This document shows, piece by piece, positions 68-56,763 of a stretch of 64,000 bases of DNA (its first letter is position 1; each line of letters opens with the position of its first letter). Below the pieces are notes generated by a model, which saw nothing but the letters and a program-made list of their open reading frames with translations, searched no databases and was not told the origin of the DNA. This DNA is from Fictibacillus terranigra (GTDB taxonomy: Bacteria; Bacillota; Bacilli; Bacillales; Fictibacillaceae): assembly GCF_030412265.1 (NCBI RefSeq), contig NZ_JAUHLN010000003.1:372001-436000 (forward strand), given 5' to 3'. Both the position numbers and the translations under genes were made by a program.

Positions 68-274
68 TCAGTTTTGAAAAAGAAAGACGCCTTTCACTTT
101 TTGAAACAGGTCGCTTAACAGTGAAATAACGATAAATAATGCCACGATGAACCCTAGGAGTGTCACCCAATGTGCATAATCTTCTTTTCCAACCATCTTC
201 AGAACACTATGCAGCATCGCTACTATGATTCCGAGACCAGCGATTTGAAAGACGACATTCACGTCAAAACCCAT
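68..274 (-). CDS. spoIIIAC: Stage III sporulation protein AC
   Basis: A 68-residue, two-helix membrane protein of the SpoIIIA complex that links mother cell and engulfed forespore and supports sigma-G activity. The sequence begins MGFDVNVVFQIAG and ends VFLFQN, typical of the family, with two hydrophobic stretches (about residues 5-25 and 35-58). An upstream in-frame ATG at 289 exists, but GGAGG lies between the two ATGs, 6 nt before the one at 274, so 274 is chosen. It sits 17 nt after spoIIIAB and its stop overlaps the spoIIIAD ribosome site, so it is co-transcribed. Confidence 0.92.
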   Translation of the reverse strand: MGFDVNVVFQIAGLGIIVAMLHSVLKMVGKEDYAHWVTLLGFIVALFIVISLLSDLFQKVKGVFLFQN

Positions 275-291
275 CTGATTTCCTCCCATGC

Positions 292-4043: not shown

Positions 4044-4544
4044 TTAGGTATTTTCCCGGCTTTGTGCTGATTGCAGTTCCTGATACTCAAACGATATCGA
4101 GTATCCTACGAATACACCATACAAAATATACAAGCACAGTGTTGTGGCAATCGTATTCCTTCCTAATTGACTGATTGGCTCTAAACCCGGAAAGATGGGA
4201 TGAAGCAAGTAAAATACTATGACCCAGAGAAGGATACCAAAGGTCAGGCCACCCACCATACTTTTAACTCTTGATAGCAGATAGCGGTAGCAAATAGCAA
4301 CCAGGATGGAAATTAGAGAAATGGCGATCACGCCGATGAGCTGGCCAAGCCATTGGGATTTCCACTTTCCTAGCGCCCATGGTGCCAGAATGAGTGCCGG
4401 TCCAATTTTGGACAAATTGAGGTAGTAAGCAAAATAACCGACAATCCCCCAGAACAGTCCTCCAAAAAACCCTACACTCACCACCCTGGCCATAAAGGAC
4501 ATCGCCTCATCCCGCTTGTTCTTGTCCTGTTTAAAATCATTCAT
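4044..4544 (-). CDS. yqhR: YqhR family membrane protein
   Basis: A 166-residue integral membrane protein of unknown function, placed as in B. subtilis between aroQ and the divergent yqhQ. Four hydrophobic segments are visible, near residues 20-45, 65-85, 95-115 and 135-155. The N-terminus is charged (NDFKQDKNKRDEA). GGAGGTG lies upstream of the ATG. No catalytic motif is visible. Identification rests on position and general character, so function is unknown. Confidence 0.75.
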   Translation of the reverse strand: MNDFKQDKNKRDEAMSFMARVVSVGFFGGLFWGIVGYFAYYLNLSKIGPALILAPWALGKWKSQWLGQLIGVIAISLISILVAICYRYLLSRVKSMVGGLTFGILLWVIVFYLLHPIFPGLEPISQLGRNTIATTLCLYILYGVFVGYSISFEYQELQSAQSRENT

Positions 4545-4733
4545 TGGAAAACACCTCCATAGTTACAGTATGTCCCGTTTTCTTCCTCCACTTTCAATAA
4601 GTTGTGTTCTATTAATATTCCGTGTTAAAAATGTATAAAATGGGAAAAATAAAGATAACGCACGATTGCCTAGAGGTTTATAGCGTTTTACTGTAGAATT
4701 AAGCTAATAAACATAAAGGGTAGAGGTGTAGAA

Positions 4734-55881: not shown

Positions 55882-56204
<323 letters not shown>

Positions 56205-56211
56205 ACAAAAT

Positions 56212-56288
<77 letters not shown>

Positions 56289-56409
56289 ATGATATGAAAG
56301 GTTGTGGACGATGCCGTCCATGTGTGTCGTCTCTTCCTCTACTAGTTAACCTTGATGTGTATCCGTCGAGACAAGCCAGCTTAGATGTTATATATCAACG
56401 CCGCAGGCT

Positions 56410-56423
56410 TGCTCCACCCCGCG
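56410..56423 (-). pseudogene. Truncated tRNA-fMet 5' stub, copy 1
   Basis: Fourteen nucleotides identical to the fMet 5' end (CGCGGGGTGGAGCA), then AGCC instead of GTCT. Confidence 0.55.
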
Positions 56424-56542
56424 ATGATATGAAAGGTTGTGGACGATGCCGTCCATGTGTGTTGTCTCTTCCTCTACTAGTTAACTTTGAAGTGTATCCG
56501 TCGAGACAAGCCAGCTTAGATGTTATATCAACGCCGCAGGCT

Positions 56543-56556
56543 TGCTCCACCCCGCG
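56543..56556 (-). pseudogene. Truncated tRNA-fMet 5' stub, copy 2
   Basis: Same 14-nt stub (CGCGGGGTGGAGCA) in the next upstream unit. Confidence 0.55.
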
Positions 56557-56670
56557 ATGATATGAAAGGTTGTGGACGATGTGTCCGAGTATATGACTGT
56601 CTCTTCCTCTGCGTGCATTTTCTTGGAGGTTCAAGCGTCGAGACAAGTGAGCAATTATTCAAATAAAAAA

Positions 56671-56763
56671 TGGAGGAGGTAGAGGGATTCGAACCCCCGC
56701 GGGCTTTTACACCCCTGTCGGTTTTCAAGACCGATCCCTTCAGCCGGACTTGGGTATACCTCC
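56671..56763 (-). tRNA. tRNA-Ser (TGA)
   Basis: A 93-nt class II tRNA with long variable arm: acceptor GGAGGTA/TACCTCC, anticodon TGA in GGTCTTGAAAACC, T-loop GGTTCGAATCC, encoded CCA. The discriminator base reads T, where G is usual for serine tRNAs. Confidence 0.95.

Follow-up and report, generated by a model that had tools for sequence, protein, structure and literature searches.

A two-hairpin element beside 5′ tRNA stubs in tRNA operons of Fictibacillus terranigra and other genera of its order

The tandem repeats of Escherichia coli tyrT (rtT RNA) are composed of units that hold the 3′ end of the tRNA, and they are located downstream of the tRNA in one operon. Integrative elements that target tRNA genes restore the 3′ end of the tRNA and encode an integrase, and nonautonomous elements of the IS200/IS605 type have a fixed short target at the 5′ junction. 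Short hairpin repeats are also an already known kind of sequence. REP sequences are described as short, high-copy, hairpin-forming and probably mobilized in trans, with a conserved GTAG beside the palindrome (PMC8266576). Bhal-1 of Bacillus halodurans is described as a stem-loop repeat family of 74 bp with 36 copies (PMC2267715).

Here, we describe a tRNA operon in a 64,000-nucleotide stretch of F. terranigra DNA (contig NZ_JAUHLN010000003.1, positions 372,001-436,000; the window), in which arrays of tandem units precede tRNA-fMet and tRNA-Phe. Each unit opens with a copy of the 5′ end of the downstream tRNA (the stub), followed by a small element and a leader. As in tyrT/rtT, tandem units lie beside a tRNA gene, each with a fragment of that tRNA, and the E. 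coli repeats are probably the nearest analogue. Unlike the tyrT/rtT units, which carry a 3′ tRNA fragment, the present units carry the 5′ end, lie upstream, contain a conserved element and involve many tRNA types; no rtT-type family was listed by Rfam for the window region at E ≤ 10. The units share the tRNA target, the partial tRNA copy and the preserved intact gene with tRNA-integrating elements, but the 5′ end is used and a unit of ∼125-160 bp is too short for an integrase gene.

The element resembles the REP/TnpA-REP system in its short, high-copy hairpin repeats and probable mobilization in trans (PMC8266576). It differs in having two hairpins and a conserved core, in lacking an invariant GTAG (the two bases before the invariant AGAGGAA vary, e.g. 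GC, TT, GT, GA and TA) and in being itself inserted into REP-like repeats. The ends of the element (ACGAGC and GAGACA in alignment A1) are not mutually inverted as in MITEs, and no target-site duplication is seen in palindromic-repeat copies, which differ by the element alone, bar ordinary substitutions. The 5′ flanks vary (AGCT, AGTC, GAGCA, CAGCC, AGCG and CAGGA), unlike the fixed target of the IS200/IS605 type. Bhal-1 is similar in size, copy number, host group, intergenic location and predicted common fold (PMC2267715), and could be the same family, as judged by description, not sequence. A literature search of titles and abstracts, with partial coverage, did not retrieve the element. Likewise, insertion into tRNA genes with a 5′ stub maintained across genera was not found in the literature, itself partly covered, including the available parts of PMC2864571, PMC8632094, PMC2267715 and PMC8266576.

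The two arrays of the window and their history in the genus

The operon is located on the minus strand in the order Asn-Met-His-Met-Ser-fMet-Phe, with units of 133 and 135 bp between Ser and fMet and two 125-bp units between fMet and Phe (Table 1). Tandem Repeats Finder detected the fMet array at 56275-56581 (period, 135; 2.3 copies; 97% matches; score, 579) and the Phe array at 55941-56204 (period, 125; 100% matches). The first 14 nt of tRNA-fMet recur twice upstream of the gene and delimit the 135- and 133-bp units. An earlier note on this DNA, made from the letters alone, had described these units, and Tandem Repeats Finder, ARAGORN and the stub positions bear the description out. The Phe units have a stub of 17 nt, taken from the start of tRNA-Phe; in the distal unit, two bases of the stub close to its 5′ end are altered. 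Hairpin 1 of the element adopts a variant form in the proximal fMet unit.

Table 1. Features of the fMet and Phe arrays (positions in the window)
Feature	Position	Strand	Evidence
tRNA-Phe(GAA), intact, downstream of Phe array	55882-55957	-	ARAGORN
Proximal Phe unit, 125 bp: 17-nt stub (56066-56082), element (55987-56065), leader	55958-56082	-	78.8 bits
Distal Phe unit, 125 bp: stub (56191-56207), element (56112-56190), leader	56083-56207	-	78.8 bits
tRNA-fMet(CAT), intact, downstream of fMet array	56212-56288	-	ARAGORN; Rfam tRNA
Proximal fMet unit, 135 bp: 14-nt stub (56410-56423), element, leader	56289-56423	-	
Element in proximal fMet unit	56328-56409	-	Model match 56328-56416, 44.8 bits, overlapping stub end
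Distal fMet unit, 133 bp: 14-nt stub (56543-56556), element, leader	56424-56556	-	
Element in distal fMet unit	56463-56542	-	Model match 56463-56546, 49.6 bits, overlapping stub end
Third element copy, decayed, in Ser-fMet spacer; stub not recognizable	56598-56658	-	40.2 bits; exact core
tRNA-Ser(TGA), upstream neighbor of fMet units	56671-56763	-	ARAGORN

The fMet units, the Phe units and the decayed spacer copy share the core GTCTCGACG-N-AGAGGAAGAGAC, which matches the window five times and 100 shuffles of it not once. The two arrays thus contain one element, contrary to the earlier view that they are independent repeats of different unit sequence.

The orthologous locus was compared in seven genomes of Fictibacillus, taken in its broad sense. 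It is empty in one genome (G001), in which 22 nt separate Ser from fMet and the covariance model finds no match at E ≤ 1. A stub-element unit precedes fMet in the window and in the other five genomes (50-66 bits in these five), and units before Phe are present only in the window genome. The fMet units had been proposed to be older than the Phe units. This age order agrees with the orthologous fMet unit in six of the seven genomes (window counted) and with the restriction of the Phe units, identical to each other, to the window genome. The downstream leader of the Phe array is nearly that of the genome's other Phe locus, and the Phe units were therefore probably copied from there. Inspection by eye shows that the hairpin 2 stem of the fMet site varies among species and remains paired, as AACTC/GAGTT in G003 and ACCTC/GAGGT in G006, and as ATCTC/GAGGT with one G-U pair in G002. 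By the same inspection, the leaders of G003-G005 contain apparent remains of older units.

Three short phage records labeled as Staphylococcus or Listeria phage (OR845017, OR847252 and OR846958) match the window's chromosomal-type tRNA cluster and look like bacterial DNA within phage entries.

Fold and distribution of the element

The element is ∼80 nt long, mostly 77-82 nt among 319 distinct hits. Its loci were first picked by the exact core pattern, and a covariance model was built from 33 such sequences; core conservation among the hits is thus partly made by selection. In the alignment of these 33 sequences (A1), ACGAGC..CGAGTT forms hairpin 1, followed by GTCTCGACGSAT..AGAGGAAGAGACA as hairpin 2. 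The closing pairs of hairpin 1 covary, and one of them is found as CG (22), GC (5), AU (4), UG (1) and other (1). The hairpin 2 stem occurs as GTCTC/GAGAC, GTCCC/GGGAC, GTTTC/GAAAC, GCTTC/GAAGC and GCCTC/GAGGC. Changes on both sides of the stems number 69 in alignment A3 (shuffle mean, 21) and 71 in A4 (shuffle mean, 9), alignments that were fitted to the model's structure and whose pair counts are biased towards it. Most of the stem changes were contributed by hits that the model added later and that do not follow the core pattern. Five measures were compared with 500 shuffles, and the observed value lay beyond every shuffle for three of them in A1 and for four in each of A3 and A4. The element consists of two adjacent hairpins, both with covarying stems. 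The repeated CGAG suggests tandem G·A pairs in the hairpins.

When folded alone, the fMet spacer is not more stable than its shuffles (z = -0.62). In the window region, Rfam 15 listed no match on the element at E ≤ 10, and only tRNA reached a gathering score. At five further loci (E ≤ 1), none was found on the element except a 22-bit match that touches 3 nt and falls far below the gathering score. A known RNA family was accordingly rejected for the scanned stretches. A recurring motif, ∼ACGGAGCAATACATCGTCCGTAAGC, was seen by eye between the element and the tRNA at fMet, Lys and Arg loci (e.g. L215, L244, L175, L084 and L134) and is probably a third hairpin.

In the F. terranigra genome, the core pattern finds nine copies and the covariance model retrieves the identical nine, all at tRNA loci: Lys (contigs 2 and 8), Phe (contigs 8 and 10) and fMet (contig 10). 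The exact pattern is present in 29 of 60 genomes (own counted), and a reversed-pattern control gave zero in every genome. The covariance model gave matches at E ≤ 0.001 in 131 of the 299 genomes surveyed from the order (own counted) and in 66 of 116 genera, in a survey whose filters lose weak matches; the other 168 genomes had no match at this limit. In a sample of the phylum, the F. terranigra genome was the only positive among 348 at the stricter limit of E ≤ 1e-5, and the 347 others without a match include some genomes of the same order. Up to 15 candidates per genome were scored in the order survey and up to 150 in the copy-number survey, and copy numbers are therefore lower bounds. At least 84-137 copies are present in each of four Evansella genomes and one Litchfieldia genome (101, 121, 107, 84 and 137), at least five in Shouchella clausii and at least two in an Anaerobacillus MAG.

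Phages and plasmids were rejected as carriers: searches that used a single query, the 79-nt element of the window, gave zero phage matches and one weak plasmid match. The pattern hit two viral contigs. One hit (L186) looks like chance, as judged by its flanks, and the other contig (L187), with two model matches, looks like a prophage piece. The two elements of L187 form an inverted pair, at 198-277 (+) and 4489-4556 (-), ∼4.2 kb apart, and no conspicuous transposase-like product was seen by eye among the listed ORFs of this contig.

Insertion into truncated tRNA copies and identity of the stubs

The 319 distinct copies were obtained from 336 pooled model hits. From 120 pattern stretches, 93 entered the model scan, and three duplicates and 24 that lacked the rest of the element by eye were left out; order-survey loci that repeated known ones were excluded from later locus sets. 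In total, 218 of the 319 copies are located upstream of a same-strand tRNA within 1.2 kb, and 190 of them directly adjoin a 5′ stub belonging to that very tRNA, compared with a mean of 2.1% for other tRNA types. The 28 copies without a stub include contig ends, decayed copies, stubs changed by indels and model matches that start inside the stub. The same architecture recurs across many genera, which supports the earlier argument for a mechanism rather than chance. The earlier note had named, as refuting its proposal, the absence of other stub arrays together with loss in close relatives. This combination was not observed: one congener (G001) has an empty site, but stub arrays are widespread.

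The stubs represent 13 tRNA isoacceptors in 30 classes of tRNA and end position. Their ends fall within the D-arm (positions 12-18), at or immediately after its end (24-29) or, in tRNA-Gly, in the anticodon loop (31), and the idea that unit boundaries always fall inside the D-arm is not supported. The commonest classes are fMet 14 (n = 36), Gly 31 (30 of 31 Gly stubs), Lys 17 (26), Phe 17 (15), Phe 12 (13) and Thr 24 (11), and position 17 is common to eight isoacceptors (Lys, Phe, Asn, Asp, Ala, Val, Arg-ACG and Arg-TCT). A further class, fMet 10, has three members and owes its existence to model matches that begin within the 14-nt stub.

Behind the element, the tRNA sequence resumes. The first 2 nt fit the continuation of the tRNA in 83% of cases versus 30%, in 189 of the 190 stubs (L237, whose tRNA start was read one base off, was omitted; L228 and L216, also one base off, were kept). 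The mean fit over six bases was reached by none of 5000 permutations, and the own-tRNA continuation beats that of other tRNAs in 27 of the 30 classes (28 when only the first two bases are used). The junctions are exemplified by Phe GAGCA^GAGGAC (L226), Thr GGTAGAG^CAACTGAC (L237), Arg AGCTCAGCT^GGATAG (L161) and Asp GTAGCG^GTTAA (L208). This short continuation identifies the element as an insertion in a truncated copy of the tRNA, in most cases within its D-arm or anticodon arm. A long target-site duplication was rejected, because similarity between the leaders of stub and tRNA is largely confined to the adjacent ∼10 nt and tRNA sequence picks up again after the element.

The 3′ half of the interrupted copy is usually gone, and an intact copy of that tRNA comes next. 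At one locus (L014, in G033), the D-arm of two fMet copies and one Phe copy is interrupted by the element; an anticodon arm comes after it in all three, and the full 3′ half is kept in one fMet copy and in the Phe copy. The fMet copies have 17 extra bases after the element, and the Phe copy misses ∼10 bases, part of the D-arm. The fMet/Phe tandem block of L014 (795-1806, reverse strand) is followed by a sodA-like gene, as in the window. All 214 copies located within 300 bp of any tRNA share its strand (sense), and 198 of them have the sense tRNA downstream.

The identity of the stubs was analyzed, as were mismatches, conservation within site classes, variant tracking and decoy folding, with copies that have a recognized stub near a tRNA. 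The leaders before stub and tRNA are unrelated in 91 of 148 loci, where the stubs are 98.3% identical to their own tRNA and 69 are perfect; at the other 57 loci, the identity is 97.9% and 42 are perfect. Mismatches amount to 0-7.5% per stub position, compared with 22% at -1 and 76% at -15. Where a tRNA departs from the majority, its stub shows the same variant at all 46 paired sites and at 30 of the 34 unpaired sites when the three misread loci are omitted (70 of 70 and 42 of 46 when they are included), and at 15 of 15 and 7 of 9 sites in unrelated-leader loci only; members of a site class are related, and these counts are not independent events. Because the stub tracks its tRNA at unpaired sites as well, copying from the tRNA is favored over selection for pairing, and the stub is most likely kept identical to its own tRNA by recombination. 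The 98.3% identity at the unrelated-leader loci is in itself also expected from selection on the stub.

Copies away from tRNA genes and the origin of the units

No tRNA is found within 1.2 kb downstream, in the stretch examined, of 101 of the 319 copies. Nine of these copies still bear a recognizable tRNA stub, and the rest are mostly from Evansella and Litchfieldia. Among 95 copies tested, 89 are intergenic and six lie inside an open frame of at least 120 codons. In palindromic repeats, the element is cleanly inserted between AGCT and GAAGAC, as seen from three occupied and four unoccupied repeat copies, which stand at different places of the genomes and are not one site in two strains. Two of the four unoccupied copies have the element at a second site nearby, and a further insertion is located near GCAGGG|CCCGAGG. 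The insertion points look like hairpin loops. A long palindromic repeat (∼GACTCCTGCGGGAAAAGCAACGGCTGAAGACCCCGCAGG...) often hosts the element at Evansella-type loci (e.g. L076, L154, L173, L089 and L209), and Rfam gave no match on it in the scanned loci L232 and L233.

We favor, with moderate confidence, the interpretation that the units are copies of a small structured element of Bacillales that is moved in trans and whose copies at tRNA loci are maintained and multiplied by recombination between stub and tRNA. The element is probably a new family of small structured elements and mobile. A putative enzyme supplied in trans would insert it into loops or junctions of structured sequence, and at tRNA loci only events that spare an intact tRNA would survive, resulting in the order leader-stub-element-leader-tRNA. 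The direct repeat formed by the stub and the tRNA 5′ end could then allow units to be duplicated, lost and copied between loci of the same tRNA; such events would generate arrays and preserve the identity between each stub and its own tRNA. Continued selection would act on the hairpins, probably as RNA in the tRNA transcript. Several points speak against this interpretation: stubs measuring 12-31 bp offer little length for ordinary homologous recombination, simple decay fails to explain the usual loss of the tRNA 3′ half, and a plain DNA element would not usually be confined to the sense orientation.

The main rival, which we regard as possible yet distinctly less probable, is a cis-acting RNA leader in which stub and element control how the downstream tRNA matures or how abundant it is, for instance through a protein on the hairpins or through competition of the stub for the tRNA 3′ half; such a function is compatible with mobility elsewhere. 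The sense-only orientation suits it, as do the stem changes that keep pairing at the orthologous fMet sites of the genus (seen by eye). It is also favored by the conservation of core (0.86-0.99, a value that partly reflects hit selection) and stub (0.84-1.0) in classes whose loops are <0.75 identical and whose loops and leaders have mostly diverged to 0.45-0.65 (random, 0.48). A first look at decoy folding at 47 loci (mean, 0.67 versus 0.17) pointed the same way, and in the energy model the stub beats the tRNA's own 5′ strand (0.64 versus 0.13). In the control on 143 of 149 loci, however, shuffled and swapped spacers gave 0.65 each compared with 0.64 for the real ones (Wilcoxon p = 0.21 and 0.03), so that in the energy model any copy placed upstream shows decoy pairing, and an evolved decoy switch was rejected. 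A closing stem between the end of the stub and the tRNA remnant is suggestive at some Gly loci and not general, with 81 of 149 loci better than swapped. The tracking of unpaired sites by the stub, the matchless genomes of the order (168 of 299) and the many copies away from tRNAs also argue against a cis-acting leader.

An unlikely alternative is a minimal mobile RNA whose insertion into the loops of structured transcripts takes place at the RNA level, which returns to DNA by copying along with the 5′ part of the host tRNA and which has become domesticated as a cis-acting module in tRNA operons; its targets would be tRNA D- and anticodon loops and palindromic repeats. If true, this reading would provide a bacterial counterpart of SINEs and a new route of tRNA-operon evolution. 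Still less probable is a minicircle of stub, element and leader that integrates by site-specific recombination at the 5′ part of the tRNA, a mirror image of integration at tRNA 3′ ends, in which the upstream leader would be chromosomal and the downstream leader brought by the unit. The prevalence of unrelated leader pairs, the near identity of the window's downstream Phe leader to that of the other Phe locus and the tandem identical units are in line with such a circle, but 125-160 bp would be very small for it, and it does not predict that tRNA sequence resumes after the element. Ordinary slippage that yields tandem duplications without any special element, the likeness of fMet and Phe being coincidence or an assembly artifact, is refuted by the distribution and the stub statistics: tandem direct repeats do arise by slippage and the identical Phe units look recent, but the same core and fold occur at many tRNA types and in many genera, the reversed pattern is absent from all 60 genomes, and single-contig genomes also carry the element (e.g. 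G009 and G103).

If the favored interpretation of an element moved in trans is right, an element found in ∼44% of the sampled genomes of the order (131/299) and located in the most scrutinized genes of all, tRNA genes, is missing from the RNA-family library used. Its loci would offer natural experiments on the tolerance of tRNA genes to insertions, the upkeep of identity between stub and source and the turning of hairpin elements into regulators. For annotation, such tRNA stubs would not be chance pseudogenes.

Longer arrays were also observed. Four to eight units with periods of ∼140-162 bp are present at L226 (in G181), G323:C19:46786-47423, L140 and L084, and the eight-unit array among them stands before tRNA-Phe.
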